In this document: in pieces, positions 7,617 to 14,684 of the stretch
Layout of the letters: each line of letters starts with the position of its first letter
How positions within the stretch are numbered: the stretch's first letter is position 1
Origin: Anaerolineae bacterium
GTDB taxonomy: Bacteria > Chloroflexota > Anaerolineae > UBA4142 > SHND01
Assembly: GCA_020851635.1 (NCBI GenBank)
Contig: JADZCJ010000121.1
Span: forward strand, 1 to 64,000
Direction: 5' to 3'
DNA length: 64,000 nucleotides
Translations under genes and position numbers: made by a program
The notes under the pieces: generated by a model
What the model was told of the DNA's origin: nothing
The model's input: only the letters and a program-made list of their open reading frames with translations
Databases searched by the model: none

Positions 7617-9635
7617 ATGACGGAATTGATTTGGGATGGGAAATATAAAGAGGGTGGCGTTGGAAAACACGCCCAAAAGGTTGCGCCTCTGCGCGTCGCG
7701 CTGCCGTTTCAGACGGTCGAGACGGTGAACGAGACCGCCAAAGAGCGCCAGCGCACATTGGATTTGTTTAGCGCGGGGCGTGATGCGGAATGGCGCAATC
7801 GTTTGATCTGGGGTGACAAAAAGTATGTCCTGCCTTCGCTGCTGCCGGAATTCGCGGGCAAGGTGAACCTGATTTACATTGACCCGCCGTTCAACGTGGG
7901 CGCGGACTTTTCATTCACGGCGACCATCCCCGACAATCCCGAGACGGACGAAGACGAAACGACCTCCTTCGTCAAAGAGCCGAGCGTGATCGAGACCAAG
8001 GCATACCGTGATACGTGGGGGCGCGGGCTGGATTCGTATTTGCAATGGTTTTATGAGACGGTGATTTTGCTGCGCGAGCTGCTGGCGGAGGATGGGAGTA
8101 TTTATGTGCATTTGGATTGGCATATGGCGCATTACGCGAAAGTAGTACTTGATGAACTGTTCGGAGTAGAAAATTGCCAAAATGAGTTGATTTGGAAACG
8201 AACGTCCGCGCGAAGCGATTCGCACACCTTTAATCACATACATGATGTTGTTTTTCTCTACAGCAAATCGGAAAGTTATGTTTTTAGCACCCAGTATACT
8301 GCGTATGATCAAACATATCTTGAAAATTTCTATAGGCAGGTCGAAGAAGAAACAGGAAGACGATTTACTCTGAGTGACCTTATGGCTGCTGGCACACGGA
8401 GGGGTTCCTCGGGAAAACCGTGGCGGGGGATCGACCCGAATTCTCGTGGCAATCATTGGAAATACACTATTGAAAAGCTTGAGGAACTCGACCGTAACGG
8501 TCGGATCTATTGGCCACAAAAAGATGGAGGTGTGCCAAGATACAAACGCTATCTAGATGAGATGCCTGGAGTGCCACTACAGTCTATTTGGACTGATGTG
8601 GGCCCAGTATCCTCCCAAGGCCTTGAGAATGTAAACTACTCAACCCAAAAACCCGAAGCCCTTCTCGAACGCATCATCAAGGCATCGTCCAACGAAAACG
8701 ACCTTGTCCTCGACTGTTTCGCAGGCAGCGGCACAACGGCCGCCGTCGCCGAAAAACTGAACCGGCGCTGGATCACGGCGGACTTGGGGCGTTTTGCGAT
8801 TCATACCACGCGCAAACGCTTGCTCGCCATTGACAATGTGCGCCCGTTCGTGGTGCAGAACCTGGGCAAATACGAGCGGCAGGTGTGGCAGGCGGCGGAA
8901 TTTGAGACGGCGGACAACGGGCGGCAGACCACAGAGGCGGAACGACAGCTGGTGTATCGGAACTTTATTCTGGAACTGTACAAGGGGCGTCCGATCACCG
9001 GGTACAGTTGGCTGCACGGTATCAAGGGCGGACGGCTGGTGCATGTGGGCGCGGTGGATTCGCCCGTGTCGGTCGGGGATGTGAAAAACATTGTTGCCGA
9101 GTTCAAAAAGGCGATTGGGACGGGCAAGGACGCGCCCGCGACGAACGGGGTGGATGTGCTGGGATGGGACTTTGCGTTCGAGTTGAACGAGGTGGCGGTG
9201 CAGCAAGCCGCGCAGGCGAATGTGAACGTGCGCTTTGTGCGCATCCCGCGCGAAGTGTTGGAGAAAAAGGCGGTCGAGCAGGGAGATATTCGGTTTTTCG
9301 AGTTGGCGGCGCTCAAGGTAAACGTTCACAAAAACAAGCGCGAGGTGACGTTGAAGCTGGAAGATTTTGTCATTCCCCCGGACGATGTGCCCGAGGACGT
9401 GCAGCGCGCAATCAAGCACTGGTCACAATGGATTGATTACTGGGCGGTGGACTGGGACAACAAGGGGGATACGTTTCACAACGAATGGCAGACCTATCGC
9501 ACGCGCAAGAGTCCCGACCTGCAAAAATCGGTCGGACACGCCTACGACGCGGCGGGGGAATATACGGTTGTGGTCAAGGTGATTGATATTTTAGGGAATG
9601 ATACGACCAAGACGGTGCGGGTAAAGGTGAGGTAG
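7617..9635 (+). CDS. Type III-like DNA methyltransferase (Mod)
   Basis: 672 residues. Motif IV DPPF lies at residues 89-92 and motif I FAGSGTT at about 368-374, the beta-class order of amino-methyltransferases. The stretch between them is the target recognition region; it is visibly more AT-rich from about 8140 to 8640, as expected for a swapped recognition domain. The C-terminal 60 residues (AAGEYTVVVKVIDILGNDT) look like a PKD-type beta domain. It methylates DNA and specifies recognition for the restriction subunit at 12108. GAGGG precedes the ATG. Confidence 0.88.
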   Translation: MTELIWDGKYKEGGVGKHAQKVAPLRVALPFQTVETVNETAKERQRTLDLFSAGRDAEWRNRLIWGDKKYVLPSLLPEFAGKVNLIYIDPPFNVGADFSFTATIPDNPETDEDETTSFVKEPSVIETKAYRDTWGRGLDSYLQWFYETVILLRELLAEDGSIYVHLDWHMAHYAKVVLDELFGVENCQNELIWKRTSARSDSHTFNHIHDVVFLYSKSESYVFSTQYTAYDQTYLENFYRQVEEETGRRFTLSDLMAAGTRRGSSGKPWRGIDPNSRGNHWKYTIEKLEELDRNGRIYWPQKDGGVPRYKRYLDEMPGVPLQSIWTDVGPVSSQGLENVNYSTQKPEALLERIIKASSNENDLVLDCFAGSGTTAAVAEKLNRRWITADLGRFAIHTTRKRLLAIDNVRPFVVQNLGKYERQVWQAAEFETADNGRQTTEAERQLVYRNFILELYKGRPITGYSWLHGIKGGRLVHVGAVDSPVSVGDVKNIVAEFKKAIGTGKDAPATNGVDVLGWDFAFELNEVAVQQAAQANVNVRFVRIPREVLEKKAVEQGDIRFFELAALKVNVHKNKREVTLKLEDFVIPPDDVPEDVQRAIKHWSQWIDYWAVDWDNKGDTFHNEWQTYRTRKSPDLQKSVGHAYDAAGEYTVVVKVIDILGNDTTKTVRVKVR

Positions 9636-9833: not shown

Positions 9834-11540
9834 ATGGAAGAAACTCTTTCGATTGACCAGTGCCCGCATTGTAAAGAAGTGGTTGAAGATCCTGTATTCT
9901 TGTGCCCTCACTGTGACAGGTTGATTCTCAAATTCGGTCGGGCGTCATCATCGCTTTTCTTGCTTGCAGCATTTCTCTCAATTCTCGCGTTCCGTGTAAG
10001 CGGATCAATCTGGCCTATGTATTTTGTTGTTGCGATCGGCATAGTCCATTTATATGCGGTTGTATTCTCCCGAGGAGCGGCGATTGTAACCGGCACCATC
10101 GCGCTTTTAGCAGTCTCGCTAGGTTGGGCGCTTTGGTTACTTTTTGAATGGATCGTAGGGTATTCTCCCATCTCTGCAAATGTAGCTCCGCTCTGGCTTA
10201 CGATACAGCAAGCATTCGACCTTGTGGGATTTTTGTTAGCTCTGGGTATATGGGTTTTAGGTACGGTATGGGCACTCATGCTTGGGCGTAGGCGAGCGTT
10301 ACCAGGCATAAGATTAGCAAGTAGCTATTTTCTCGCAACAGGCGCCTTTATCTTTGGACTTTGGGCCACATGGGCGATCTTGATAGAAAATAGCCGATTC
10401 CAAGAAATTGTTATCAACGTAGCCGTCCTACTCGCGCTTATAGTTCCTGTAGTGCTATTGGTGTTTCTCTTGAGACGAGAACCGCCAAAGGGAACACGGT
10501 CACAAGTGTTTGCGGTCTGGTCGTTGCTCCTTACAGCTTATCTGTTCTCGACTCAGTTTCTCACCGTCCTGGTAGAGTATGGACTTGGCGTGATTCTACC
10601 AAAGGTACTTGGATTGCCGACTCTCGGCGTCGATTTGCCGTGGTTGCTCGATGTTCTCAAATGGCGGGCTCCAATTTCAGGAATCCTCTTGGCGGTTGCT
10701 TTGGTATCCTTGACTGCTTCAAGTCTCGCAACGGCCATTGAAGAATATCGTTCGTCCAAATCAGATAATCTACAACGTTTCGCAGATGGAATCAGAGAGC
10801 GTCTCACAGGATCCTCCAATTTTGTCGAGCAAATGACCTTACATATCGGAGGTGCATTAGCAGAGCTGGCAATACTTGGGACGAAAATTGCAGTCGTCGC
10901 TGGTGTTACCGCAACCAATCTCATTGACAATATTGTCGCTGTTTTAAAGGACGGATGGTATTACGGACTGAAGATGCTACGGTTTTTAATCGTCCCCGTG
11001 TTTAGCTTTTCGGTGTTGAGTATTCTATTAATCATAGTACTTACTGACTATCAAAGATACATTAGCGGGATAGCATTTTCTCCGTGGGCTCTTTGGGGAG
11101 AGGCAATTACCTACCTCATACTCGTTCTTGTGTTGAGTGCTGCTTGCTTCGGTTTTGCCCCTGCAATACAAAGTCGATTTGTCTTTAGTGGCACAATGGC
11201 GGCAGCCATGTTTGGTGTCTTGATCTACTTTGTGATTTCGATTGCCAGCTTGGGACTTTTGTTCATACATTTTGGATTCCGGACAGTTGGAATTTCCATG
11301 CCGTTTGTGGAACCGGGTCCAATCTACACATTGAATATTGTTGCATGTGTAGTGGCATTAGGATTACTGATAATGACGGTTGCTCCGACAACCATCCTTT
11401 CAAATTTGCGCGAGCGCTTTGCTCGTTTTGGCGCACTTCTTCCGGGATTTCAAGTTGCAGTATTAGTCGGGTTTGGAGTACTGGCGATCTACTTTGGTTT
11501 GGGTCTGATTTCGGAGAACATCTTGAAGTTAACCAAATGA
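9834..11540 (+). CDS. Polytopic membrane protein with N-terminal zinc ribbon
   Basis: 568 residues from an ATG with GGAG upstream. Residues 10-30 hold two CPHC motifs (CPHCKEVV and CPHCDRLI), a zinc-ribbon knuckle. The remainder is about a dozen hydrophobic segments interrupted by one cytosolic loop with a predicted amphipathic stretch around residues 305-340. I do not recognise the family. Base composition is clearly more AT-rich than the mod and res genes. Its position between them, in the same orientation, suggests it arrived with or inserted into the restriction island. Confidence 0.8.
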   Translation: MEETLSIDQCPHCKEVVEDPVFLCPHCDRLILKFGRASSSLFLLAAFLSILAFRVSGSIWPMYFVVAIGIVHLYAVVFSRGAAIVTGTIALLAVSLGWALWLLFEWIVGYSPISANVAPLWLTIQQAFDLVGFLLALGIWVLGTVWALMLGRRRALPGIRLASSYFLATGAFIFGLWATWAILIENSRFQEIVINVAVLLALIVPVVLLVFLLRREPPKGTRSQVFAVWSLLLTAYLFSTQFLTVLVEYGLGVILPKVLGLPTLGVDLPWLLDVLKWRAPISGILLAVALVSLTASSLATAIEEYRSSKSDNLQRFADGIRERLTGSSNFVEQMTLHIGGALAELAILGTKIAVVAGVTATNLIDNIVAVLKDGWYYGLKMLRFLIVPVFSFSVLSILLIIVLTDYQRYISGIAFSPWALWGEAITYLILVLVLSAACFGFAPAIQSRFVFSGTMAAAMFGVLIYFVISIASLGLLFIHFGFRTVGISMPFVEPGPIYTLNIVACVVALGLLIMTVAPTTILSNLRERFARFGALLPGFQVAVLVGFGVLAIYFGLGLISENILKLTK

Positions 11541-11748
11541 GTTCTCTTTGGAAACACCGTACGCCTTTGAGATGAGCTCTCCCCATCGCCAGTCGAATTC
11601 ATTGGTCTATCCTCCCTTTTCAAAAACTTACCTGCAAAACTCCTCGCCCGTGCCCTGCCACCCAGGCTCCGCAGAAATGTTACACGCAGTCTTTGACAAA
11701 CATATTCTTGCGCGAAAAGTGCTGTCTTGGAATAAACAAGCCAGCCCT

Positions 11749-11902
11749 CTGTAGGCTAGGCTCGGATGTCGAGCGCACGGCATAAAGCCGACTTTTACCT
11801 ACAGCCGACCGGCTGTTATTTCACTGCCCTGACTCCGAACTGTTCCGTTGGAACACTCACCATACGCTCGGTACGGGTTTCGGTGGTCAGTGACACATCT
11901 AT
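11749..11902 (-). ncRNA. Candidate structured RNA within the restriction island
   Basis: Two stacked junctions can be drawn. The first is a three-way junction: CTGTAGG (11749-11755) pairs with CCTACAG (11798-11804) and encloses the hairpins GCTCG-N5-CGAGC and CGGC-N5-GCCG. The second is a stem CTGA..CCGAA (11829-11839) pairing with TTCGG..TCAG (11879-11890), enclosing TGTTCC-gtt-GGAACA. A consensus-like promoter on the minus strand would start transcription near 11902. No ORF accounts for the sequence and it matches no RNA family I recognise. The 3' end is not defined. Confidence 0.45.
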
Positions 11903-11908
11903 GTTTCT

Positions 11909-11936
11909 ATTGTAACGGATATTCTCACCTCGTCAA
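11909..11936 (-). promoter_or_regulatory. Promoter for the candidate RNA
   Basis: On the minus strand: TTGACG (11936-11931), a 16-base spacer, and TACAAT (11914-11909). The predicted start is at about 11902, just before the first stem of the structured region. Confidence 0.5.
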
Positions 11937-12107
11937 TACCTGAATTTTGTTCGGAGTGTGCGTCACGATTTTGGGTAACAATTTACTCCCCCTCAAATTT
12001 AGTATAGATTCGTGGAGATTCGCGTTGATTCGCGGTTTCTATCCCCAGAGTCGAGAGTTGCCCAAAACTTTGACGCATACCCTTTTGCTCGGTTTTAAGG
12101 ATTTGCC

Positions 12108-14684
12108 ATGCCTCGCCCAAAGAAATCAACACTACAACCCTCTTTGCTCGAACCCGCGTTCAAGACCGCCCCGACCGTGCCTGCCATCAAGGAGGCGGTG
12201 CGCGAATGGCGCGAGGCGAAATACAAAGGCGCGACCGAGACAACGCGCATTTTATTAAATTACTGGTTCAAGACCGGCCATCGCAGGTTGAATGGGCGTC
12301 CGTTCGTCTATTATGACGCCCAGCGGGAAGCGATCGAGACGCTGATTTATTTATACGAAGTGGCGAACGTGCGAACGCACAAGGAGCTGATCGAGAAATA
12401 TGCGGGCAAGGTCAAGGACTTGCGTTTGCTGCAATACGATCTGTTTGCGCGGTATGGGGTCAAGATGGCGACGGGGAGCGGCAAGACCAAAGTCATGGCG
12501 CTGGCGGTCGCGTGGCAATACTTTAATGCGGTGGCAGAAGGACGCGACGATTACGCCAAGACATTTTTGCTGCTTGCGCCAAATGTGATCGTGTTTGAAC
12601 GTTTGAAATTCGATTTTGAAAACGGTCGGGTGTTCAAGACCGACCCGCTGATTCCGCCCGAACTGGAGATTTTTTGGGACTTTGATTTCTATATGCGCGG
12701 CGACGGCGAACGCGCCAGCTCGCAAGGCGCGCTGTATCTGACCAACATTCAGCAGTTTTATGAGCGCGCCTCGACGGATGACGACGAACCCGACATCATG
12801 ACCGCCGTTCTGGGACCGAAACCGCCGACCCAACCGAACGGCGCGGATAATTTTGACAAACGCATTGCCGCGCGCGGCGGCGCGGTGATGGTGCTGAACG
12901 ACGAAGCGCATCATACGCACGACGAGGAAAGCGAGTGGAACAAGTGCATTCGACGGCTCCATAGTCAAACCCTTGAGGTCTCAGAGACCTCAAGGGTTTT
13001 GGCGCAGTTGGATTTTAGCGCGACGCCGCGTTACAGCAAGGGTTCGCTCTTTACGTGGACGGTGTTTGATTATCCCCTCAAGCAGGCGATCATTGACAAC
13101 ATTGTCAAACGCCCGCTCAAAGGGATTGCCAGTGGCATTCAGGAAGCAAAATCGGACATTGCGAGTGTGCGTTACAAGGCATACCTCACCGCCGGAGTGG
13201 AGCGTTGGCGCGAGTATGTCACGCAGCTCGCGCCGCTCAGCAAGAAACCGGTCCTCTTTGTCATGATGAACACCACGGACGACGCGGACGATGTAGCAAG
13301 TTGGCTACGTGACCGTTACCCCACCGAGTTCAGCGGGGAAAGGTTATTGAGGATCCACACCGACAGGTCGGGCGAAGTATCTAAAAAAGATTTGGACGAC
13401 GCGCGCAAGGCGGCGCGTGAGGTGGATTCATCCAACAATCCCATCAATGCCATCGTCAGCGTGTTGATGCTGCGTGAAGGTTGGGACGTGCAGAATGTGA
13501 CGGTCGTCGTCGGTCTGCGCCCCTATACGTCCAAGGCGAATATTCTGCCCGAACAAACGGTGGGGCGCGGACTGCGCAAAATGTTTCGCGACCTGGCGAC
13601 GGATTACACCGAGCGCGTGGACGTGATCGGAAACAAGGCGTTTATCGAATTTGTCGAGCAGCTGGAAAAAGAAGAGGACCTTGCCTTTGAGACTTTTGAG
13701 GTCGGCAAGGACAAACTCGCCATCGTCACGATCGCGCCCGACCCTGCCAAACTCGCCAAGGATATTGCGGTCCCCGTGCTCAGTCCGATTCTCGCGCGCA
13801 AAAAGACGCTGGCAGAGGAAATTGCCGGGTTGGACGTTTCCAAAATGGACCGGGTGACGCTACCGATCAAGAGCGGAGACAAGGCGGCCGAGACGTTCAA
13901 GTACGAGGGATATGATTTTCTGACCCTGCAAAAACTGGTCGAGCGCGATTACAAACTGCCCGAAGTGCAGACGTCGCAAGAGGTGATTTCGTATTACGCC
14001 AAGCGCATCGCACAGGACGTCAAGCTGCCGTCACAGTTTGCGGCGCTTGCGCCCAAGGTGCGCGAGTTTTTGGAAACGCGCGCATTCAACCTGCCCGCCG
14101 ACCTGGACGACCCCGTGATTTTGAAAGCGATTGCGACCAACGTGGCGCAGTATGTGACCGTGCAAACGTTTGTCAAGGCGCTGCGCCCGCTCGTGGTGCA
14201 AGAGTTGACACCCGAATTGAGCGGAGAGGCGCGCAAATTATCCGAGACGCCGCCCTTTCCGTATGCGCGCACTACCCTGCCTGCCGCCAAGACGGTGTTC
14301 AATCTGGTGACCTGCGGCAACGAGCTCGAAAAAGCGTTCGCCAAATTTCTCGACGGCGCGCAAGACGTGGAACGTTTTGCCAAGCTGCCCGAACAATTCA
14401 ACTTTGCCATCGAATACACAGATTCAAACAACAATCTGCGCTATTACGAGCCCGATTTTGTCGTTGTGACCGCGGACCGCGGGCACTGGCTCGTTGAAAC
14501 CAAAGGACGCGAAGATATTGACGTTGCCAACAAAGACCGCGCCGCCATGCTCTGGTGCGAGAACGCAACGCGATTGACGGGCACAGAATGGAGTTATCTC
14601 AAGATTCCGCAAAAAGAATTTGAGAAATTGCAGGCGGACGAGTTTGGGGATTTGCAGGTGTTTGCGCCCCCGCCGCTTTTTTAA
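12108..14684 (+). CDS. Type III-like restriction endonuclease (Res)
   Basis: 858 residues. Helicase motifs: Walker A ATGSGKT (about 121-127), DEAH box (265-268), and motif VI QTVGRGLRK (around 486). A C-terminal PD-(D/E)XK nuclease follows (YYEPDFVVV then VETKG, about 780-800). It translocates on and cuts DNA lacking Mod methylation. AAGGA lies 6-7 bases before the ATG. An 11-codon palindromic sequence interrupts the region between the DEAH motif and the SATPR motif without breaking the frame (see 12967). It is separated from mod by the membrane-protein gene. Confidence 0.88.
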   Translation: MPRPKKSTLQPSLLEPAFKTAPTVPAIKEAVREWREAKYKGATETTRILLNYWFKTGHRRLNGRPFVYYDAQREAIETLIYLYEVANVRTHKELIEKYAGKVKDLRLLQYDLFARYGVKMATGSGKTKVMALAVAWQYFNAVAEGRDDYAKTFLLLAPNVIVFERLKFDFENGRVFKTDPLIPPELEIFWDFDFYMRGDGERASSQGALYLTNIQQFYERASTDDDEPDIMTAVLGPKPPTQPNGADNFDKRIAARGGAVMVLNDEAHHTHDEESEWNKCIRRLHSQTLEVSETSRVLAQLDFSATPRYSKGSLFTWTVFDYPLKQAIIDNIVKRPLKGIASGIQEAKSDIASVRYKAYLTAGVERWREYVTQLAPLSKKPVLFVMMNTTDDADDVASWLRDRYPTEFSGERLLRIHTDRSGEVSKKDLDDARKAAREVDSSNNPINAIVSVLMLREGWDVQNVTVVVGLRPYTSKANILPEQTVGRGLRKMFRDLATDYTERVDVIGNKAFIEFVEQLEKEEDLAFETFEVGKDKLAIVTIAPDPAKLAKDIAVPVLSPILARKKTLAEEIAGLDVSKMDRVTLPIKSGDKAAETFKYEGYDFLTLQKLVERDYKLPEVQTSQEVISYYAKRIAQDVKLPSQFAALAPKVREFLETRAFNLPADLDDPVILKAIATNVAQYVTVQTFVKALRPLVVQELTPELSGEARKLSETPPFPYARTTLPAAKTVFNLVTCGNELEKAFAKFLDGAQDVERFAKLPEQFNFAIEYTDSNNNLRYYEPDFVVVTADRGHWLVETKGREDIDVANKDRAAMLWCENATRLTGTEWSYLKIPQKEFEKLQADEFGDLQVFAPPPLF
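12967..12999. repeat. Perfect palindrome inside the res gene
   Basis: Two 16-base arms (AAACCCTTGAGGTCTC and its reverse complement) are separated by a single A. The 33-bp length equals 11 codons, encoding about residues 287-297 (roughly QTLEVSETSRV). It looks like a mobile intergenic-type repeat that inserted in frame. Confidence 0.85.

Follow-up and report, generated by a model that had tools for sequence, protein, structure and literature searches.

The window (the whole stretch of 64,000 nucleotides analysed here, from a contig of an Anaerolineae bacterium) encodes a type III restriction-modification (RM) operon. The gap between its mod and res genes holds a gene for a predicted membrane protein and, at 11734-11901 on the minus strand, two RNAs that each form a three-way junction, RNA2 preceding RNA1 in the order of transcription (table 1). 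The membrane-like protein has no match in Pfam, PADLOC or NCBIfam and might be the present accessory gene of the operon. An imperfect 33-nt inverted repeat (73%) lies just upstream of res, at 11956-12080; part of it is also found at G000:C90:2900-2958 (85%) and on G000:C48, possibly as a dispersed repeat. No DUF3800 gene adjoins the two RNAs at this locus, and no reverse transcriptase gene occurs among the genes flanking them (mod, membrane protein, res). A previous sequence-only reading had described a single structured RNA with two branched structures, explained by no open reading frame or known RNA family. Both structures are present, as RNA1 and RNA2, but they are two separate RNA genes; the segment does lack a match in Rfam, but its relatives account for it.

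Table 1. Features of the mod-res region, in coordinates of the window.
Feature	Position	Strand	Basis
mod, type III DNA methyltransferase	7617..9635	+	PF01555 1.5e-43; PADLOC MTase_III 1.7e-112
568-aa predicted membrane protein, mod-res gap	9834..11540	+	no family match
RNA1	11734..11819	-	R1 match 89.6 bits (window itself in model); covariation
RNA2	11814..11901	-	R2 match 73.8 bits (window itself in model); pair-by-pair comparison with L043
-10 element TACAAT	11909..11914	-	16-base spacer from -35
-35 element TTGACG	11931..11936	-	sequence; -35/-10 pair 10/12 matches
res, type III restriction subunit	12108..14684	+	PF04851 1.7e-14, PF19778 1e-06

The closing stem of RNA1 pairs 11739-11755 with 11798-11814, its hairpins lie at 11778-11790 and 11760-11774, and its 3' end, GGGCTGGCTTGTTT, is a terminator-like stem followed by a U-tract. 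On the minus strand, 11740-11925 has a folding energy of -65.4 kcal/mol (z -3.0, with 1 of 200 shuffles equally good), and RNA1 folded alone reaches a z of -5.0. When 22 RNA1 sequences were placed in an unfitted MAFFT alignment, 87.4% of the cells of the three-way junction were paired, versus 29-53% for slid versions of the structure. Two-sided compensation occurs in 16 of the 25 pairs of this alignment, and none of 500 shuffles matched its covariation score. A consensus fold derived without any prior structure again shows both hairpins and the outer stem, and 11 of its pairs are compensated. The covariation case for RNA1 leans on these two analyses rather than on alignment A5, which is slightly contaminated by four opposite-strand R1 matches (L023, L055, L024, L060). 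These matches were rejected as mirror matches of identical stems.

RNA2 is closed by a stem between 11825-11832 and 11887-11895 and has hairpins at 11860-11876 and 11841-11855. Folded alone it has a z of only -1.3, so the case for this RNA is built on comparison and not on energy. Its family has five clear members (the window and L043-L046) and two sister sequences (L047 and L049). Between the window and L043, 9 of the 22 pairs have changed: five by two-sided compensation and two to wobble pairs, while the two outermost are broken. The U-tract is also gone from the window copy, as are these two outermost pairs. Five other R2 matches (L090-L094) were discarded as false positives, with no DUF3800 gene found and no promoter seen; they are still inside alignment A6, hence its result is not counted as support. 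Compensatory changes among relatives, which the sequence-only reading had proposed as a check, were found for RNA1 and RNA2 alike. Neither family has a match in Rfam 15, where nothing passed the gathering thresholds and E-values up to 10 returned chance matches only (for the window segment, one at E 3.6). By eye, RNA1, RNA2 and the RNA of a third, divergent DUF3800 clade have a common layout, in which the closing stem encloses GAAA or similar, a first hairpin, UG and a second hairpin, in this order; they may thus form one superfamily.

The near-consensus minus-strand promoter reported earlier, TTGACG-16-TACAAT, is indeed present and precedes RNA2; transcription is expected to start near 11902. 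RNA1 starts within a few bases after RNA2. Since the U-tract is missing from RNA2 and RNA1 is without a separate promoter in the window, the two are probably carried on one transcript. Transcription from the minus strand, as previously claimed, is backed at the level of sequence by the promoter, by the counts of G-U pairs and A-C mismatches, and by the U-tracts. Across 48 loci with RNA1 homologs, a TTGACA-16/18-TATAAT promoter (at least 10 of 12 matches) lies ahead of the RNA in 33; the opposite strand has one in 3 of 48, and the downstream side in none. A U-tract ends nearly all of the homologs. In the unfitted RNA1 alignment, G-U pairs outnumber A-C mismatches (47 versus 20), hence the RNA is the strand opposite to DUF3800. 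The plus strand was ruled out as the RNA by these counts, the promoter and the U-tract. In the relatives, the RNA is convergent to DUF3800, with its own sigma-70-type promoter and a terminator within the last DUF3800 codons, and overlaps the end of the gene by about 17-20 bases. The promoters and U-tracts thus define a rule: the DUF3800 gene is followed by a convergent RNA gene that has a strong promoter of its own.

A BLAST search of 11740-11925 against 60 related genomes gave three good matches covering roughly the first 78 bases and one covering bases 87-153. The two parts were never matched together, and each matched copy lies at the 3' end of a gene encoding a DUF3800 (PF12686) protein. 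Readings of the segment as an integron attC site, an insertion-sequence end or another mobile element were weighed by eye and abandoned after this link emerged. When genome contigs were scanned with one such protein, an RNA1-like sequence was found at the stop codon of all 19 DUF3800 relatives, from Chloroflexota and from metagenome-assembled genomes assigned to Zixibacteria, Omnitrophota, Margulisbacteria, candidate phyla and others. Hence, the conserved end of the protein, ..KxSPL, is probably shaped by the RNA. The RNA1 family occupies the 3' end of one DUF3800 clade (D1) in Chloroflexota and other phyla. The RNA2 family is smaller and adjoins a different clade; the window copy is a relative of the RNA adjoining the DUF3800 gene in G058, G089, G020 and G055.

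Among 396 genomes of the class, RNA1 accompanies all 11 intact close DUF3800 genes, and a related RNA accompanies all 17 divergent DUF3800 genes inspected by eye. The genome of the window has two other DUF3800 genes, on contigs C18 and C74, each apparently followed by its own convergent RNA. At L041 (G000:C18:5200-6060) the DUF3800 gene is broken by an in-frame TGA and the convergent RNA looks intact. Close RNA1-type DUF3800 genes were not found on plasmids; a divergent DUF3800 occurs on a single viral contig (L097), together with a weak R1 match (28.9 bits). A further RNA family (GCCAGNGGACGAAAYUCGGCUCCAUGCCGUGUG...CCUAUAUCCCUGGC) is convergent to divergent DUF3800 genes at L150-L166, usually with a strong promoter, and no Rfam match was found for it in the sampled loci. 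At two further loci (L100:2268-2490 and L101:2277-2569), DUF3800 genes lie between antitermination Q and holin genes, in lambdoid elements that sit on E. coli and Salmonella plasmids, and are followed by a conserved segment, GTCGACCTCTCAGCCGACAYGGTTGGAGTCCCAG, which may be another RNA.

We counted 21 RNA1 copies scoring at least 62 bits. An intact DUF3800 gene lies beside 11 of them and is lacking in the other 10: six are beside a truncated or stop-containing gene (G143, G185, G240, G364, G124, G041) and four are without any (the window, G030, G133, G178). The copy in G041 (L071), near a contig end, was scored as truncated since its DUF3800 end diverges after about 12 codons, and may be misassembled. 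The asymmetry between RNA and DUF3800 has a Fisher p of 0.006, which is indicative only, as the copies are not independent. Mean model scores are 74.6 bits without and 82.7 bits with an intact gene, a comparison biased by a model built mainly from gene-linked copies; promoter scores are 9.7 and 11.2, respectively. These lower scores and weaker promoters would fit decay.

The copies without any DUF3800 gene lie close to restriction or other defence genes. The res homolog of G012 is 76% identical to that of the window and belongs to the order mod-DUF3800-RNA1-res, which is also found at L027. RNA1 and RNA2 matches are absent from the res homolog regions of G004, G066 and G085. The mod-res gap measures 44 bp in G085; the one in G066 encodes an AbiJ_NTD4/DUF7014 protein (L132:4246-5283), which suggests that the gap of type III operons may accept different abortive-infection genes. 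In type I systems, hsdS and hsdR of G281 flank an RNA1-like orphan (55.6 bits), and a DUF3800 gene with its RNA lies ahead of the start of a related hsdR in G248. Of the other orphan RNA1 copies, that of G133 lies 64 bp ahead of a CHAT-NACHT gene, that of G178 has a BrxC-like gene at about 0.7 kb, and that of G030 a type III res at 1.8 kb. Since several intact DUF3800-RNA modules have housekeeping neighbours, the tie of the module to defence loci is recurrent, not general.

The AlphaFold model of the DUF3800 protein is of high confidence (pLDDT 88.5) and best matches RNase HII (1eke; Z 10.4, 4.7 Å over 167 residues), followed by Argonaute PIWI at Z 8, a range where a match may mean little. Residues D14, E15 and D204 are invariant. 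The protein is thus predicted to fold like RNase HII and, as modelled, combines the fold and the conserved acidic residues expected of a nuclease of the RNase H fold. This fold is also stated for DUF3800 in PMC10910872. PADLOC assigns the RNA1-type protein to DUF3800_VII (6.7e-28) and the RNA2-type protein to PDC-M04A (2e-52). At nine loci with more distant RNA2-type relatives (L048, L050, L051, L052, L053, L095, L099, L102, L103), the next gene is PDC-M04B and no RNA was seen; it looks as if RNA and protein partners of DUF3800 were swapped across loci. PDC-M04B resembles PBECR2 nucleases, below threshold only. L099 is a P1-like phage-plasmid and L102 a type I RM locus, both with DUF3800 followed by PDC-M04B.

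We hold the identity and layout of the two RNAs with high confidence. The explanation that we prefer is that a single minus-strand unit carries two DUF3800-partner RNAs, RNA2 then RNA1, with no DUF3800 gene, in the accessory gap between mod and res. DUF3800 would be an RNase-H-fold nuclease whose harm is held in check by its RNA, and the two would form a toxin-antitoxin-like pair able to sit within RM operons, as PrrC does. The protein gene would then not be retained without the RNA, while the RNA could persist alone. Such an asymmetry, in which the RNA is found alone and intact close DUF3800 genes are not, would be expected if the protein is harmful and its RNA neutralises it, but slow decay of leftovers could produce it too. 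In the window, two such RNAs would have been joined into one unit with a single promoter, and may still be produced. This explanation also draws on the RNase HII-like fold and on the loci where PDC-M04B takes the place of the RNA. Judged purely from gene layout and patterns of loss, inhibition is the best-supported mechanism, and the balance tips slightly towards the RNA being an inhibitory partner of DUF3800. We think it more likely than not that the segment represents orphaned, probably inhibitory, DUF3800 partner RNAs of an RM-embedded nuclease, and have some doubt that the orphan pair is still functional.

The copies in the window could instead be pure relics, remnants without function that drift has not yet broken up, the DUF3800 genes having been deleted or never having arrived. 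The lower scores and weaker promoters of copies lacking an intact gene speak for this, as do several half-decayed DUF3800 genes beside intact RNAs and the loss of the terminator U-tract and two outer pairs of RNA2. We regard such a history as a serious possibility, somewhat short of an even chance: the stems are retained in both RNAs, with the five two-sided compensated pairs of RNA2 relative to L043 (undated changes), and the promoter still has 10 of 12 matches. Antisense control, by which the RNA would act only by annealing to the DUF3800 mRNA at its end or through transcription collision, could exploit the convergent overlap of about 17-20 bases. It would need neither a conserved junction with compensatory changes nor invariant bases in the loops and junction outside the overlap, and would leave the orphans without a role, which makes it rather improbable.

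Two proposals of the sequence-only reading fared worse. It had suggested a guide-like component, and the constant RNA-protein pairing and the presence of RNase HII and Argonaute PIWI among the fold matches could indicate a guide or scaffold for the RNase-H-fold protein. However, the RNA is almost wholly paired and stops within the coding end at a terminator of its own, about 48 homologs showed no 3' segment that is variable and unpaired, and orphan RNAs would be useless; we consider such a role very unlikely. It had also suggested a regulator upstream of res. The RNA is directly upstream of res in the window and in G012, but the res homolog regions of G004, G066 and G085 lack it, many RNA1 copies have no neighbouring RM genes, and the constant neighbour across relatives is DUF3800, not res. 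We give almost no credence to control of the mod-res operon itself. If the RNAs are orphaned inhibitory partners, they might have been kept as a double antidote that neutralises DUF3800 nucleases arriving on phages and plasmids. This is a speculative and unlikely extension; if true, it would be an RNA counterpart of anti-addiction antitoxins, drawn from two DUF3800 systems in an RM island.

The analysis adds two RNA families absent from Rfam 15, with strand and gene layout fixed; an RNA that often occurs without its protein, the reverse not being found; a module linked to positions between the genes of type I and type III RM operons; and DUF3800 genes in which a protein partner appears to replace the RNA. 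Together, these results allow a direct test of the idea that the RNA inhibits an RNase-H-fold nuclease.

RNAs adjoining DUF3800 genes have, to our knowledge, been reported already, without a known function, and Weinberg et al. (2017) reportedly described DUF3800-associated RNA motifs. Like the DUF3800 motifs of Rfam, RNA1 and RNA2 are conserved structured RNAs tied to DUF3800 genes; unlike them, they match no Rfam model even at E 10, and the window copies are gene-less and joined in tandem. The association between RNA motifs and DUF3800 is stated in PMC10910872, and the Rfam names DUF3800-I (RF02969) and DUF3800-IX (RF02968) are given in PMC11701678. The published DUF3800-I model had zero matches in 301 genomes of the phylum, in a search run without a positive control. 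The families have the covariation-backed structure and the adjacency to DUF3800 that characterize this class of RNAs, while the window copy itself does not adjoin such a gene. Homologous DUF3800 proteins are listed by PADLOC as defence genes: DUF3800_VII, the retron type VII effector, and PDC-M04A/B. The loci described here differ from these candidates by the convergent RNA gene, and RNA2-type loci have the RNA where PDC-M04B stands elsewhere.

If the RNA inhibits the nuclease, the pair would resemble type III toxin-antitoxin systems (ToxIN). In ToxIN the RNA lies upstream as repeats, codirectional with the toxin gene, whereas here the RNA gene is downstream, convergent and has its own promoter, and the DUF3800 partner has a predicted RNase H fold. 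OMEGA and CRISPR-like guides combine a scaffold with a variable unpaired guide, and here the paired body ends at the U-tract. PrrC is a tRNA-cutting enzyme silenced by the linked type I RM enzyme (PMC2610378, PMC3874168); it is held by an RM protein and is not known to have a partner RNA, unlike DUF3800, which moreover often lies outside RM loci. The likeness is one of position: PrrC is encoded among RM genes in a type I operon (PMC2610378, PMC3874168), and DUF3800 lies between mod and res in G012 and L027 and before hsdR in G248.
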